58,282 bases of DNA from Acidobacteriaceae bacterium (GTDB lineage Bacteria > Acidobacteriota > Terriglobia > Terriglobales > Acidobacteriaceae): assembly GCA_030041515.1 (NCBI GenBank), contig JASHNS010000060.1, positions 1 through 58,282 on the forward strand, given 5' to 3'. The first letter of the stretch is position 1. Each line of letters starts with the position of its first letter. The translations under genes and the position numbers were made by a program. The notes below the pieces were generated by a model that worked only from the letters and a program-made list of their open reading frames with translations, ran no database searches and was not told where the DNA came from. Below are positions 42,705 to 48,243 of the stretch, piece after piece.

Positions 42705-43044
42705 GGGATTGAGCCTTTCTCCGGGAGAACGCTGTGCAGGACACGCGGCGCTGATGTACTGCCTCTCCATCCTCCAAGGCAGTTCAACATCACAACTGAA
42801 TGGAGAACGACCGAATGAGCACGATTGCTGTATCGACGGCGACCGCTGAAGCAACCATCAACCGCGCAACACTCGACTGCCGCAACGACGACAGCGAACC
42901 AACCATCGGGGAAACGCTGGAAGAAGCAGCGGTCATCCTCGAAGAAGACCCGAGCGACGAAATACCGATTCGGCCCAAAAAGTGTGGGTTGGTAAGGTTT
43001 TGTAGGCTTGCAAACCCACCTGAACAGTCTTTTAGACAGGCTTA
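42705..43044. other. Intergenic region, no confident gene
   Basis: Between the ROK gene and tRNA-Ser. An ATG at 42815 with GGAG upstream opens an acidic frame, but its 3' end runs antisense through the tRNA gene and gives the GGETEIRTLD product typical of translated tRNA-Ser, so I do not call it. An inverted repeat GTGGGTT/AACCCAC lies just before the tRNA 3' side. Confidence 0.5.
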
Positions 43045-43134
43045 TGGCGGAGAGACAGAGATTCGAACTCTGGATGCCCTTTCGAGCATACACGCTTTCC
43101 AAGCGTGCGCCTTCAGCCACTCGGCCATCTCTCC
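43045..43134 (-). tRNA. tRNA-Ser (anticodon GGA)
   Basis: A 90-nt class II tRNA with encoded CCA. Acceptor arms GGAGAGA and TCTCTCC pair with discriminator G. The anticodon stem CACGC/GCGTG surrounds TTGGAAA, giving GGA. The long variable arm (TGCTCGAAAGGGCAT) and GTTCGAATC T-loop fit serine. Confidence 0.96.
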
Positions 43135-43203
43135 GCGGCGCGCTCTATCCTGAATCTACCATAGCGGCACGCTAGAGACGGGCCACTAAAATGGTCCATC
43201 GCC

Positions 43204-44613
43204 ATGCCGTCACCGCATCCCGTCCACACCTTCGAACAGCCGGAGCCTCCCGCGCGCCTGAAGGCGGAATTGCGCGCGCTGCTGGCGCTGGCGATTCCCG
43301 TGGTTTTATCGGAACTGGGCTGGATGACGATGACGATCGTCGACCTGGTGATGGTGGGACGGCTGGGTCCGGACGCCATTGGGGCTGTGGGTTTGGGCAA
43401 CGCGATCTACTACGCGCCATCGCTCTTCGGCATCGGTTTGCTGCTCGGGCTGGACACGGTGGTATCGCAGGCGTGGGGCGCGCAACGCTACGACGACTGC
43501 CATCGCTGGCTGGCACAGGGGATGTACATTGCCGCAGCGTTCACTCCCCTGCTGATGATCGGCATGCTGGGGGCGACCTGGGTGTTCACGGGACACGGCG
43601 TGAATGCGACGGTGTCGGGGCTGGCGCGCTCGTACGTGATGCTGCTGAACTGGGGCACGTTGCCGCTGATCGTGTACGGCGGATTCCGCCGCTACCTTCA
43701 GGGAGTAGGGCGTGTGCGGCCGGTGGCCTTCGCGCTGATCACGGCGAACCTGGTGAATCTGGCCGGCAACTGGGTTCTGATCTATGGGCATTGCGGATTT
43801 CCGGCGATGGGCGTGCGCGGGTCGGCGCTCTCGACTTGCGCGGCGCGCGTGTACATGGCCGGGGTGCTGGTGTGGGCGGCGTGGTGGCACGAATCGAAAC
43901 GTGGGCACGCGCTGTTCGAGCATTGGCCGGGACCGGATTGGGGGCGCTTACGGGAGCTGCTGCGTCTGGGATTGCCGGCGGCATTGCAGCTGGTGCTGGA
44001 GGTCGCGGCGTTCGGCGCGGCGACGGTGATGGCGTCGCATTTGAACCCGATTGCGCTGGCGACGCATGAAATCGTGCTGAGCTGCGCCGCGTACACGTAT
44101 ATGGTCCCGCTGGGTATCTCGGCCGCGGCGGCCGTCGCTGTGGGACATGCGATCGGCTCCGGCGCTCCGAAGCGGGCAGGGCGCGCGGGTTTGTTGTCGC
44201 TGGTGCTGGGCGCCGGATTCATGGCGCTGATGGCCGTGATGTTTCTCGTTGCGCCGCGGCCCATCCTGCACATCTGGACGGGGGACCGGGAGGTGCTGCG
44301 CCTGGGAACGCACATTCTGGCGATCGTTGCGGCGTTTCAGATTTTCGATGGCATCCAGTCAGTTTCCACCGGGGCGCTGCGGGGACTGGGCGAGACGCGC
44401 TTCCCAATGCTGATCAACCTGGGCGGGTACTGGGTTCTCGGGCTGCCGCTGGGCGCGCTGCTGTGCTTTCGTCTGAAGTGGGGGCTCTCCGGCATCTGGG
44501 CAGGACTGACGCTCGCGCTTATAACAATTGCGCTGGTGCTGTGCGCGCGGTGGATGAAGGATGCGCGGCGGCCGCTGGTGGGAACGGGTTCGGCGCCGTT
44601 CGCCGGACCCTGA
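43204..44613 (+). CDS. MATE-family multidrug efflux protein
   Basis: Cation-coupled exporter of 469 residues with about 12 TM segments in two homologous halves. The first half starts AIPVVLSELGWMTMTIVDLVMVGRLG, a typical MATE/NorM N-terminus, and the second RLGLPAALQLVLEVAAFGAATVM. Substrates are usually cationic drugs. TAAAAT lies 11 nt upstream of the ATG, so the leader is very short. No operon partner; a small membrane gene follows 57 nt later. Confidence 0.93.
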   Translation: MPSPHPVHTFEQPEPPARLKAELRALLALAIPVVLSELGWMTMTIVDLVMVGRLGPDAIGAVGLGNAIYYAPSLFGIGLLLGLDTVVSQAWGAQRYDDCHRWLAQGMYIAAAFTPLLMIGMLGATWVFTGHGVNATVSGLARSYVMLLNWGTLPLIVYGGFRRYLQGVGRVRPVAFALITANLVNLAGNWVLIYGHCGFPAMGVRGSALSTCAARVYMAGVLVWAAWWHESKRGHALFEHWPGPDWGRLRELLRLGLPAALQLVLEVAAFGAATVMASHLNPIALATHEIVLSCAAYTYMVPLGISAAAAVAVGHAIGSGAPKRAGRAGLLSLVLGAGFMALMAVMFLVAPRPILHIWTGDREVLRLGTHILAIVAAFQIFDGIQSVSTGALRGLGETRFPMLINLGGYWVLGLPLGALLCFRLKWGLSGIWAGLTLALITIALVLCARWMKDARRPLVGTGSAPFAGP

Positions 44614-44670
44614 GCGCTTTTGGATGTTGAGGCGAGGGGGCCGTTCGGTTAGACATCCTATACTGCGTCC

Positions 44671-44925
44671 ATGGATCGCCTGACCCTTTTCGGCCTGTTC
44701 GCCGTCTCCGCCATGCTGATCTTCTATGCGCTTGAAGCGCGCAGCCGCTGGTTCATCCTGGCTTTCGCCGTCTCGTGCGTGCTGGCGTCGGCGTACGGGT
44801 TTCTGCAGGGAGCGTGGCCGTTCGGCCTTGTGGAAGGGGTTTGGTCGCTAGTAGCGCTGCGGCGCTGGTGGAAAGCGCCGGTCTCCCCGGCGAACGGCAT
44901 TGACCCGGCCCGCCCGCTACCGTAA
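44671..44925 (+). CDS. Small conserved membrane protein
   Basis: An 84-residue protein with two or three TM helices (TLFGLFAVSAMLIFYALE, WFILAFAVSCVLASAYGFLQ, LVEGVWSLVALRRWW). It resembles a widespread uncharacterised small membrane family; the GFLQGAWPFGLVEGVWS segment is well conserved in my memory. No Shine-Dalgarno is seen, while TATACT ends 6 nt before the ATG, as in a leaderless message. The -35 box and most of the -10 of the promoter for the next transcript lie inside its 3' end. Confidence 0.7.
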   Translation: MDRLTLFGLFAVSAMLIFYALEARSRWFILAFAVSCVLASAYGFLQGAWPFGLVEGVWSLVALRRWWKAPVSPANGIDPARPLP

Positions 44926-44928
44926 TAT
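44900..44928 (+). promoter_or_regulatory. Housekeeping-type promoter, TTGACC-N17-TAATAT
   Basis: The -35 box TTGACC (44900-44905) and -10 box TAATAT (44923-44928) are separated by exactly 17 bp. The predicted start is about 7 nt after the -10, at or next to the ATG at 44936, so the leader ORF would be leaderless. It reads into the Cys-rich leader and the reductase operon. Confidence 0.65.
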
Positions 44929-44935
44929 CTATTTG

Positions 44936-45004
44936 ATGGCTCTGTGCCCCATGCCGGTGATGTGCTGCGCTTGTTGTTGCGCGCTGCGCCGGACTTGTGG
45001 GTGA
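44936..45004 (+). CDS. Cysteine-rich leader peptide of the reductase operon
   Basis: A 22-codon ORF with Cys at positions 4, 10, 11, 13, 14, 15 and 21, the core being MCCACCC. It is proposed to sense Cys-tRNA supply by ribosome stalling, not to act as a protein. The ATG sits where transcription is predicted to start. Codons 19-22 (44990-45001) form the 5' half of the antiterminator, so a ribosome finishing at the TGA would mask it. An intrinsic terminator follows 30 nt later, and then the sulfite/nitrite reductase. A frame this rich in clustered Cys is unlikely by chance. Confidence 0.72.
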   Translation: MALCPMPVMCCACCCALRRTCG

Positions 45005-45038
45005 GCCCAGAAATCAGTTAGCCAGCCCCATAAGCCCG
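44990..45038 (+). promoter_or_regulatory. Predicted antiterminator stem
   Basis: CGGACTTGTGGG (44990-45001) can pair with CCCATAAGCCCG (45027-45038): ten Watson-Crick pairs, one G-U and one A-C mismatch. The 3' half includes CCCG of the terminator's 5' arm (45035-45038), so the two structures exclude each other. Confidence 0.6.
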
Positions 45039-45074
45039 CGCTTCAGCCTCAGCTGACGCGGGTTTTCTATTTTT
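45032..45074 (+). terminator. Attenuator (intrinsic terminator) before the reductase
   Basis: CCCGCG (45035-45040) and TCAGC (45043-45047) pair with GCTGA (45052-45056) and CGCGGG (45057-45062) around a CTCA loop with a 2-nt bulge. The flanking AAG can extend the stem. TTTTCTATTTTT follows (45063-45074). It lies upstream of, not after, the gene it would control, the hallmark of an attenuator. Confidence 0.78.
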
Positions 45075-45104
45075 ATCGCAAATTTGCTCCGAGATGGAGG
45101 ACCT

Positions 45105-46805
45105 ATGGCGGACGTAGCCGTGAAAGAAACCAAGGCGCAGAGAGCCGAACGTCTGAAGCGCGAGAAAAATCCCTGGGAAGCGATCGAGGAGATTCGCGGC
45201 TTTGCCCGCGACGGGCGCAGCTCGATCCCGGAGGAGTGGAACACGTACTTCCGCTGGTGGGGGATCTATACGCAGGGCGACGGCGCCGGCGTGACCGGGG
45301 GCAAAGGCGGCGAAGGCAAGGCTACGGAGTACTTCATGCTGCGCGTGGGCGTGCCCAACGGAATTGTGACCGCACGTCAGGCGCGCGCGCTGGCGGAGAT
45401 TGCGCGGCGACACGGGCGCAACCTTGCCGATATCACGGTGCGGCAAAACATCCAGTACCACTGGCTGACGATCGAGTCGCTGCCGGAGATCATGGAGTCG
45501 CTCGCGGCGGTCGGACTCTCGCCGAAGGGGGCGTGCGGCGACGTGGTACGCAACGTGACCGGCTGCCCGCTGGCGGGCATCGCGCACGATGAGCTGGTGG
45601 ATGCTTCGCCGCTGGCGGGGGAGATTTCGCGAGCGCTGCAGGGGAACACCGACTTCGTCAACCTGCCGAGGAAGTTCAAGATTTCGGTAACGGGCTGCCC
45701 GGTGTGGTGCTCGTACCCGGAGATCAACGACATCGGCCTGACGGCGGTGCGGCGCGGGAACGAAGTGGGTTACTCCGTGCGCGTGGGCGGAGGCCTCTCG
45801 AATGAGCCGCACATGGCGGTGCGGCTGAATGCGTTCGTGCGGCAGGATCAGGCGGCGCAGGTGGTGCGCGCCATTGCGGAACTGTTTCGCGATCAGCAGG
45901 GGCTGCGGGAAAGCCGCGACCGCGCGCGGCTGAAGTATCTCTTCATGAAGGAAGGCTGGACGGCGGAGCGATTCCTGCTGGACGTGGAAAGCCGACTGGG
46001 GTACAGCCTCGATCCTGCCGTCGAGGAGGAAGTTCCGGAAGACATTCTCCGCGACCATGCAGGGATTCATCCGCAGAAGCAGCAGGGCCTGAGCTATGTG
46101 GGCGCGAGCGTGCTGCGCGGCCGGCTGACCGGCGATCAGCTGGCGGCGGCGGCGGAGCTGGCGGAGCGATACAGCGCGAGCGGGCGAGGCGATCTTCGGC
46201 TGACGGTGATGCAGAACCTGCTGTTCCTGAATATTCCGACTGCGCGCGCCGGAGAATTGGCGGTGGAACTGGAGCGGATCGGACTGCGCGTGGATGGAAC
46301 ACCGTTCTTCCGGGGCGGGATTGCCTGCACAGGGACGGAATTCTGCAAGCTGGCGATCACGGAAACGAAGGGCTTTCTGCGCTGGCTGGTGGATGAGATG
46401 GAGGAGCGGCTGCCGCAGTTCGATCAGCAACTGCGCCTGCACGTGACCGGCTGCCCGAACAGCTGCGGCCAGCACTGGATTGCCGATATCGGACTGGAAG
46501 GCAAAAAGATCAAACACGATGGGCAACTGACGGACGCGTATTACTTCTGCCTGGGCGGGTCGGTGGGGCAATACGCGGGAACGGCGCGGCCAGTGGGCTA
46601 CCGCACGCCAGCGCACCTGGTTCCCGAAGCGATCGAGCGGCTGCTGCGGCGGTATCTGGCGGAGCGTAACGAGCGCGAGAATCTGCGCGCCTGGTTTGCG
46701 CGGCACGAAGACACGGATTTGCGCGCCACCCTGGCGGGTGAGGAACTTGCCGCGGTGGAACGCGATGTGCCGACGGGGCGGGTTCCGGCGGAGGTGGGCG
46801 GATGA
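45105..46805 (+). CDS. nirA: Siroheme- and 4Fe-4S-dependent sulfite/nitrite reductase
   Basis: Six-electron reductase for sulfite to sulfide (or nitrite to ammonia), ferredoxin-type; 566 residues. The two Nir_Sir ferredoxin-like halves and the two siroheme/4Fe-4S regions are present. Cluster ligands are Cys408 and Cys414 in CTGTEFC, and Cys450 and Cys454 in TGCPNSCGQ. The family includes mycobacterial NirA, reported to be a sulfite reductase, so the name does not fix the substrate. The Cys-rich attenuator upstream favours sulfite (cysteine synthesis). GGAGG lies 4 nt before the ATG. Two siroheme genes follow with ATGA overlaps. Confidence 0.92.
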   Translation: MADVAVKETKAQRAERLKREKNPWEAIEEIRGFARDGRSSIPEEWNTYFRWWGIYTQGDGAGVTGGKGGEGKATEYFMLRVGVPNGIVTARQARALAEIARRHGRNLADITVRQNIQYHWLTIESLPEIMESLAAVGLSPKGACGDVVRNVTGCPLAGIAHDELVDASPLAGEISRALQGNTDFVNLPRKFKISVTGCPVWCSYPEINDIGLTAVRRGNEVGYSVRVGGGLSNEPHMAVRLNAFVRQDQAAQVVRAIAELFRDQQGLRESRDRARLKYLFMKEGWTAERFLLDVESRLGYSLDPAVEEEVPEDILRDHAGIHPQKQQGLSYVGASVLRGRLTGDQLAAAAELAERYSASGRGDLRLTVMQNLLFLNIPTARAGELAVELERIGLRVDGTPFFRGGIACTGTEFCKLAITETKGFLRWLVDEMEERLPQFDQQLRLHVTGCPNSCGQHWIADIGLEGKKIKHDGQLTDAYYFCLGGSVGQYAGTARPVGYRTPAHLVPEAIERLLRRYLAERNERENLRAWFARHEDTDLRATLAGEELAAVERDVPTGRVPAEVGG

Positions 46806-47455
46806 GTCTGCTTCCTGTTTTTTTAAGGCTTGAAGGGCGCAGGTGCCTGGTAGTCGGCGCGGGGTCGGTGGCGTTCGCGAAAATCGAGAGCCTGCGCGAG
46901 GCGGGCGCCGCGATCGCGGTGGTCGCGCCCCATGCAAACGATGAGGTGCGACTGCTGGCAGGCGCTGGAGCACTGGTGTGGCATGAGCGCGTCTTCAGGG
47001 CATCGGATCTCGACGGGGTGTTTGTCGTCATCGCGGCGACGAATGCGCCGGAGGTGAACCACGCGGTGTACGAGGAGGCTCGCCGGCGCAATGTGGTGTG
47101 CAACGCGGTAGACGATCCGCCGAACTGCGATTTCTATTTCGGCTCGGTGGTGAGGCGCGGCGATTTGCAAGTCGCGATCTCGACCGCCGGTGAAAGCCCG
47201 GCGCTGGCGCAACGGCTGCGGCGCGAGATCGATGCGAGTTTGCCGCAGGATCTGGGTCCGTGGGTTGCGGAGCTGGGCCAATTGCGCAGGGAGATTCGCG
47301 CGGCGATGCCGCCGGGCGAGGCGCGGAATTTGCTGCTCCATGAATTAGTGCAGCGGACGCTGTGCAGCTCGGCGGCATGCCCCACGCGGCAGTTTGCGCA
47401 GGAGCGCATCGAGACGGCGCGAGATAGCGGGGCGATGATGGAGGTGACGGCATGA
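46802..47455 (+). CDS. Precorrin-2 dehydrogenase / sirohydrochlorin ferrochelatase
   Basis: Makes siroheme from precorrin-2: NAD-dependent oxidation, then iron insertion; equivalent to the N-terminal half of CysG. It has 217 residues, with the NAD-binding start FLRLEGRRCLVVGAGSVAFAK. VCNAVDDPPNCDFYFGSVVRRGDLQVAISTAGESPALA matches the CysG dimer/ferrochelatase region. It overlaps the reductase stop and the next start by 4 nt each (ATGA), so the cofactor is made with the enzyme that needs it. Confidence 0.93.
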   Translation: MSLLPVFLRLEGRRCLVVGAGSVAFAKIESLREAGAAIAVVAPHANDEVRLLAGAGALVWHERVFRASDLDGVFVVIAATNAPEVNHAVYEEARRRNVVCNAVDDPPNCDFYFGSVVRRGDLQVAISTAGESPALAQRLRREIDASLPQDLGPWVAELGQLRREIRAAMPPGEARNLLLHELVQRTLCSSAACPTRQFAQERIETARDSGAMMEVTA

Positions 47456-48243
47456 CGGCGGCGGAACGCGGAACGGTGTATCTGGTGGGCGCGGGGCCCG
47501 GGGATCCGGAGTTATTGACGCTGAAAGCAGTGCGACTGCTGGCCACGGCCGATGTGGTGTTGCACGACGATCTGGTGCCCGCCGCGGTGCTGGCTCATGC
47601 CGAACGCGCGCTGGCCATCAACGTGGGCAAGCGCTGCGGGCGGAAGAACATCTCGCAGGAGCAGATTGACGCGATGATGGCGGATTACGCGCGGCGCGGG
47701 ATGGCGGTGGTGCGGCTGAAGTCGGGCGATCCGCTGGTCTTTGGGCGCGCGGGCGAAGAGATGGACGCGCTGCGCCGTGCGGAGGTGCCGTTCGAGGTGG
47801 TTCCGGGCATCACGGCTGCCTTTGCCGCAGCGGCGGCGGTGCAGCGTCCGCTGACAGATCGGCGGAACGCCTCGAGCATCAGTTTTTCTTCCGGGCACCA
47901 CGCTCCGGGTTCGACACTGGAGCCGGCATCGCTGGCCGGGGCGACGCGGGCGATCTACATGCCGGGGCGGGATCTGCGCGGAGTTGCTGCGCAGCTTCGC
48001 AAGGAAGGGCTGCCGGCGGACCTGCCATGCGTTATCGTCTCGCGGGCGGCGCAACCGGACCAGGAGATCGTGCGCACCACGCTCGGACGGCTGGATCGTG
48101 TCACCGCCGGAGCGGCTCCGTCGATTCTGCTGGCAGGCGAAGCGTTGCGGGATGCAGACGGAGCAGCTGTGGATGCCGCGGCCGGCTATGTTTCCCGCGA
48201 TGACGCGGACGAGCGGAGAGTCGCCGAGACCTCGTCCCTTTAA
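47452..48243 (+). CDS. cobA: Uroporphyrinogen-III C-methyltransferase
   Basis: Adds two SAM methyl groups to uroporphyrinogen III to give precorrin-2, the first committed step to siroheme; 263 residues. The TP-methylase N-terminus VYLVGAGPGDPELLTLKAVR, the DVVLHDDLV and VVRLKSGDPLVFGRAGEE segments and VVPGITAAFAAAA are all SUMT signatures. The last gene of the reductase operon, overlapping the preceding gene as ATGA. With its neighbour it replaces a fused CysG. Confidence 0.95.
   Translation: MTAAERGTVYLVGAGPGDPELLTLKAVRLLATADVVLHDDLVPAAVLAHAERALAINVGKRCGRKNISQEQIDAMMADYARRGMAVVRLKSGDPLVFGRAGEEMDALRRAEVPFEVVPGITAAFAAAAAVQRPLTDRRNASSISFSSGHHAPGSTLEPASLAGATRAIYMPGRDLRGVAAQLRKEGLPADLPCVIVSRAAQPDQEIVRTTLGRLDRVTAGAAPSILLAGEALRDADGAAVDAAAGYVSRDDADERRVAETSSL

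Follow-up and report, generated by a model that had tools for sequence, protein, structure and literature searches.

The reductase and siroheme operon in the Acidobacteriaceae window analysed here (58,282 nucleotides, contig JASHNS010000060.1) is preceded by what is very probably a leaderless, cysteine-specific, ribosome-mediated transcription attenuator of assimilatory sulfate reduction; the cysteine response is inferred, without experimental data. The Cys codons, the start geometry and the terminator are well supported. The first-pass annotation had proposed a cysteine attenuator at this locus and had named missing conservation of the Cys codons or of the alternative pairing in relatives as grounds for its refutation. 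That comparison was performed, and the proposal withstood it.

The promoter, all of it on the forward strand, comprises TTGACC (44900–44905), a 17-nt spacer and TAATAT (44923–44928). It was present as annotated earlier and was the sole sigma-70-like match in the region 44600–45200 (mean of 0.1 in shuffled sequences). Its TTGAC is invariant across 18 aligned leaders. The leader ORF MALCPMPVMCCACCCALRRTCG (44936–45004, forward strand) consists of 22 codons and a stop codon, with seven Cys at codons 4, 10, 11, 13, 14, 15 and 21. Five of these fall into the cluster at codons 10–15 (CCACCC, 44963–44980, forward strand), the inferred stall site. The ATG lies 7 nt 3′ of the −10 hexamer, i.e., at approximately +1; the Cys-rich frame at a predicted +1 start had also been noted previously. 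The intrinsic terminator (45032–45074, forward strand) is formed by an interrupted hairpin at 45032–45065, with a computed fold of −20.5 kcal/mol, and a T-rich tail to 45074, in agreement with its earlier assignment. A simple terminator scan of the window returned no site at this terminator, probably because the stem is interrupted. GGAGG at 45096–45100 (forward strand), identified by eye, is the likely ribosome-binding site of the reductase gene. Neither of the two leader peptides of this genome matched NCBIfam models. Upstream, the closing TAA of an 84-codon frame without a Pfam match (44671–44925) forms part of the −10 hexamer.

Three genes follow on the forward strand, with a 4-nt overlap at each junction: a NirA-like siroheme/4Fe-4S reductase, probably an assimilatory sulfite reductase (45105–46805; PF01077, PF03460), a precorrin-2 dehydrogenase of the CysG N-terminal type (46802–47455; TIGR01470 above cut-off) and a uroporphyrinogen-III C-methyltransferase of the CobA/CysG C-terminal type (47452–48243; TIGR01469 and NF004790 above cut-off). 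For the reductase, the top-scoring NCBIfam models are of the NirA and ferredoxin-nitrite reductase types, with scores below cut-off; its identity as a sulfite reductase is therefore inferred from context only. Elsewhere in the window, a tRNA (Rfam RF00005) at 43048–43134 on the reverse strand lies inside a listed 117-codon frame on the opposite strand (42800–43153), and the frame is thus probably not a gene.

Transcription, translation, stalling and the cysteine response at the leader are all inferred from the sequence, and the following scheme is conditional on them. The transcript would begin approximately with the A of the leader's AUG, and a ribosome would load on the bare 5′ end, a mode of initiation inferred from the promoter spacing and the lack of a Shine-Dalgarno (SD) site. 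With ample Cys-tRNA, the ribosome would reach the stop codon and cover 44990–45001, the putative 5′ half of the antiterminator on the forward strand; the terminator at 45032–45074 would then form, ending transcription before the reductase gene. With Cys-tRNA scarce, the ribosome would stall in codons 10–15, and the RNA beyond it could pair with 45027–45038, the putative 3′ half on the same strand, which overlaps the terminator 5′ arm, and with part of that arm before the 3′ arm is made. Once this antiterminator had formed, RNA polymerase would continue into the reductase, cysG-type and cobA-type genes.

Folding under different ribosome positions agreed with this scheme in part. With the ribosome at codons 10–15 and the terminator 3′ arm not yet made, the free RNA adopted a fold containing the antiterminator (−25.7 to −15.6 kcal/mol). 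Moving the ribosome to the stop codon reduced this to −1.9 kcal/mol, and the terminator formed in the full RNA. However, in equilibrium folds of the full-length RNA the terminator persisted even with the ribosome stalled at the Cys codons, so the switch would have to be kinetic, decided while the hairpin is being transcribed. Without a ribosome, the 5′ part folded on itself and the terminator formed; termination would therefore be the default.

A DNA search of the same genome revealed a second leader copy on another contig, MSLCPSLVACCVCCCTLRRTCG, with TTGACG and a −10-like site upstream and a hairpin with a T-run downstream. The gene after it belongs to the PAPS-reductase family (cysH). When 60 relatives were searched together with the own genome, all 11 other genomes of the genus matched the leader. 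A search with a covariance model derived from 18 leaders gave 23 matches, with at least one in each of the 12 genus genomes. All 18 strong matches (E 6.8e-20 or lower) precede a reductase (11), cysH (4) or cysD (3) gene. One genus genome (G001) showed only the cysH copy, and its reductase gene sits at a contig end. The second copy before cysH and the genus copies before cysD point to the leaders as a cysteine-tuned set for assimilatory sulfate reduction. The five weaker matches (L362–L366; E 6e-7 or higher) had no reductase, cysH or cysD nearby; L362–L365 showed no Cys run in the 20 codons printed for each frame, and L366 (E 0.05) had Cys codons in one frame. The hairpin of L362–L365 is very similar to the leader terminator and is perhaps a shared terminator sequence. 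Separately, on contig C71 of the own genome (L263), a frame MKACHAKRAGSSGHLIEKPFFCCCGCR, closed by a stop codon, lies 159 nt upstream of a cysD match, without an evident terminator.

At the family level, the covariance model matched 35 of 150 genomes, with 44 matches; among the 30 of these that were listed, 23 precede a reductase, two cysD, one cysH and four none of the three. Reductase upstream regions were then collected from the family, class and named-genome searches. They comprised 197 loci, three of which were dropped for having less than 200 nt upstream, leaving 194 with at least 200 nt and 161 distinct regions. Frames of 10–45 codons were scored as leaders if a stretch of 8 codons held 3 or more Cys. 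This criterion was met in 138 of 161 regions (dinucleotide shuffles: mean 9.9, maximum 15; reverse complement over the whole 450 nt: 11). At least 4 Cys in 8 codons were found in 103 regions (0.5 in shuffles) and at least 5 in 56 (0.1 in shuffles). The relatives are not independent, and the controls are shuffles and reverse complements, not upstream regions of unrelated genes. The remaining 23 of the 161 regions had no frame reaching the 3-Cys threshold; by eye, a hairpin in some of these (L058, L073, L080) is preceded by a frame poorer in Cys, and others (L063, L086, L099) immediately follow a different reading frame.

The leader is carried by, among others, Granulicella mallensis (L199), G. 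aggregans (L190), G. rosea (L230) and metagenome-assembled genomes of Candidatus Sulfotelmatobacter and Acidiferrales; no leader was found upstream of the reductase of Terriglobus roseus (L205). In other families of the class, the leader was present in all six usable members (L243–L247, L249), the seventh (L248) having only 64 bases. Elsewhere in the phylum, one of ten more distant reductases (L250–L259) had a candidate leader. This locus (L258, genome G324, outside the class) has a leader beginning MNMYDFRTLRCCCSCPCLLGRD and a different hairpin with a T-run before a distant reductase homologue, and is possibly an attenuator outside the class. Three further loci were not part of the 161: no leader was found at a second, more distant paralogue in G289 (L260) or at L261 in a family genome, and a candidate was present at L262.

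Among 26 regions upstream of cysD, 16 held a frame reaching the threshold of 3 Cys in 8 codons, a count without a shuffled control. The cysH loci were scanned on both strands with orientation unfixed and were left out of the counts. Model-matched Cys-run leaders were also observed before peroxiredoxin-like genes in three family genomes (L341 in G075, L344 in G062, L348 in G106); the AhpC/TSA domain was confirmed with Pfam for L341, while L344 and L348 were judged by eye. No reductase match was obtained in the family search for G075 and G062. In another family genome (L345, G172), a leader beginning MKQNLTTVANACCMCCCMPR and a hairpin precede a PF03601 gene, which we take to encode YeiH, a putative sulfate exporter.

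The start geometry recurs with the Cys run. A promoter (at least 8 of 12 consensus bases, with the −10 element lying 4–10 nt before an in-frame start codon) that places the start near +1 was found in 115 of 138 leaders (shuffles: mean 7.9, maximum 16), and the gap from −10 to start was 6 or 7 nt in 83 of these 115. For the window leader, the scan selected a TTG, in frame and 4 nt from the −10 element, instead of the ATG at 7 nt. Six leaders had SD-like motifs. On sequence grounds alone, the criterion for a leaderless start of the poly-Cys frame was met. At a cut-off of −8 kcal/mol, a hairpin with a T-run behind it was present in 123 of 138 leaders (16–23 in six shuffles), and 116 retained one at −12 kcal/mol or lower (4–10 in shuffles); 15 leaders lacked a hairpin of −8 kcal/mol or lower. 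Median distances to the start of the hairpin were 65 nt from the Cys run and 29 nt from the stop codon. The promoter, the near-leaderless start, the Cys run and the terminator are all found repeatedly within the family and in further families of the class.

The evidence for the antiterminator was more uneven. The 12-nt pairing of 44990–45001 with 45027–45038 claimed earlier does exist, but not in full: 11 of 12 positions pair, with one A·C mismatch, and the hairpin has −12.8 kcal/mol. Across 18 genus leaders, pairing between the leader end and the terminator 5′ side was stronger than in shuffles (mean z −2.35; below −1.64 in 14 of 18), with z −2.6 for the window pairing in this wider definition, which includes both segments. 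Pairing was weaker in L007 and L038 and absent in L011 and L016; for L011, the first of two Cys runs was used. Base-pair variants were seen in L035 (A-U for G-C) and L036 (GGGCUU with AAGCCC), and the cysH group adds an antiterminator pairing of GGGUA with UACCC. Exchanging the 5′ half for that of another genus leader often gave an equally strong pairing, e.g., in 13 of 17 swaps for L038. When pairs were counted in 11 of the 18 leaders, chosen for a common spacing of the antiterminator 3′ half, 88.6% of cells paired (25–51% in slid controls). The same alignment contained one two-sided change, not above shuffles; the genus thus demonstrates conservation of the pairing, not covariation. In the RNAalifold consensus of the 18 leaders, the terminator and a stem in the region of the Cys codons were present, but the antiterminator was not.

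In a broader set of 122 leaders, the stretch hidden by a ribosome at the stop codon paired with the terminator 5′ side at a mean of −21.5 kcal/mol, versus −16.4 kcal/mol in shuffles, with z below −1.64 in 63 leaders and above +1.64 in one. Grouping by shared 8-mers placed 97 of these leaders in one group; seven of eight groups were negative (p = 0.055–0.07). A narrower arm definition gave mean pairing of −12.8 kcal/mol (−10.3 shuffled, −11.6 swapped), and with the ribosome at the last Cys the leaders overall scored 0.51 versus 0.45. Under this definition the window pairing was not above shuffles (z +0.1; 0.24 versus 0.53 with the ribosome at the last Cys). The alternative pairing is thus stronger than shuffles on average, but within the genus it is kept mostly by invariance and not by compensatory changes. 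The antiterminator is supported by pairing strength and not by within-genus covariation, and some of the tests were weak.

Among other explanations, translational attenuation of the mycobacterial type remains the least difficult to defend, although we consider it unlikely. Here the stalled ribosome would free the ribosome-binding site of the reductase, and the hairpin would be secondary. Leaderless poly-Cys frames of M. smegmatis are said to control downstream translation (PMC9031893, PMC13236596). In the window, a hairpin at 45066–45098, seen in one fold, could cover part of the GGAGG at 45096–45100, and the cysD frame of the own genome has no evident terminator. Against this stand the strong hairpin and T-run after the great majority of leaders (123 of 138), at a steady distance from the Cys run, and a leader–terminator-arm pairing that exceeds shuffles, both of which favour attenuation of transcription.

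The peptide itself offers a second and highly improbable explanation, a nascent arrest peptide in which the conserved CCACCCALRRTCG stalls the ribosome on a ligand and not on Cys-tRNA charging. The peptide end LRRTCG is indeed kept in many genus leaders. However, the tails vary between groups and genera, and some are in a different frame from LRRTCG, whereas the Cys run is retained; this reading was set aside for that reason. Sulfur genes are targets of riboswitches and T-boxes in other phyla, and a known element of this kind with incidental Cys codons was also considered. It is scarcely credible, since Rfam yielded no match at the gathering threshold at this locus and none up to E 1 on 44850–45130, and the Cys runs are far above chance. 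Equally hard to sustain is a chance short frame before the ordinary terminator of an upstream gene: frames with 2 Cys in 8 codons are frequent by chance (64.8 of 161 in shuffles), but the excess at 3, 4 and 5 Cys is far above shuffles and tied to promoter and hairpin positions, and Cys-run leaders recur before cysH and cysD.

Beyond a single operon, we tentatively raise, without favouring it, the idea that leaderless cysteine attenuators exist throughout the class, at least partly independent of those in mycobacteria, with one ribosome sensor per operon (reductase, cysH, cysD and sometimes a peroxiredoxin or YeiH-like transporter) and a terminator/antiterminator that is rapidly re-invented. 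If this holds, sulfur assimilation and peroxide defence would be tuned by Cys-tRNA charging without a regulatory protein. The proposed attenuator couples leaderless translation to classical transcription attenuation, which poses a testable question: can a ribosome loaded on a bare 5′ end trail RNA polymerase closely enough to decide termination? Cultured Granulicella strains carry the leader, so the attenuator can be tested. Our search of openly licensed papers found no description of a cysteine leader-peptide attenuator in Acidobacteriota.

The element resembles trp/his-type attenuators of Proteobacteria and Actinobacteria in its run of codons for the regulated amino acid, its terminator and a putative alternative stem that a ribosome at the stop codon would mask. 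In contrast to them, the Acidobacteriota leader is inferred to sense cysteine, starts at about +1 without an SD site, and keeps its architecture while terminator and alternative-stem sequences change between genera. The mycobacterial leaderless poly-Cys ORFs (Canestrari et al. 2020) reportedly share a leaderless Cys-run frame before cysteine and sulfur genes in several operons. In M. smegmatis, such frames are reported to control translation of downstream genes (PMC9031893, PMC13236596, PMC9094748), whereas in Acidobacteriota a terminator follows most leaders. Short frames with Cys runs have also been predicted as leader peptides of cys operons in Mycobacterium and P. acnes and of cbs in B. 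longum; no conserved terminator hairpins were reported for them, and Rho dependence was suggested (PMC1262725), unlike the Acidobacteriota leaders, most of which have a terminator. The Acidobacteriota element thus shares a leaderless poly-Cys frame with mycobacteria and a terminator logic with trp-type attenuators. It also suggests that more than one phylum employs cysteine leader peptides, with differing read-outs.
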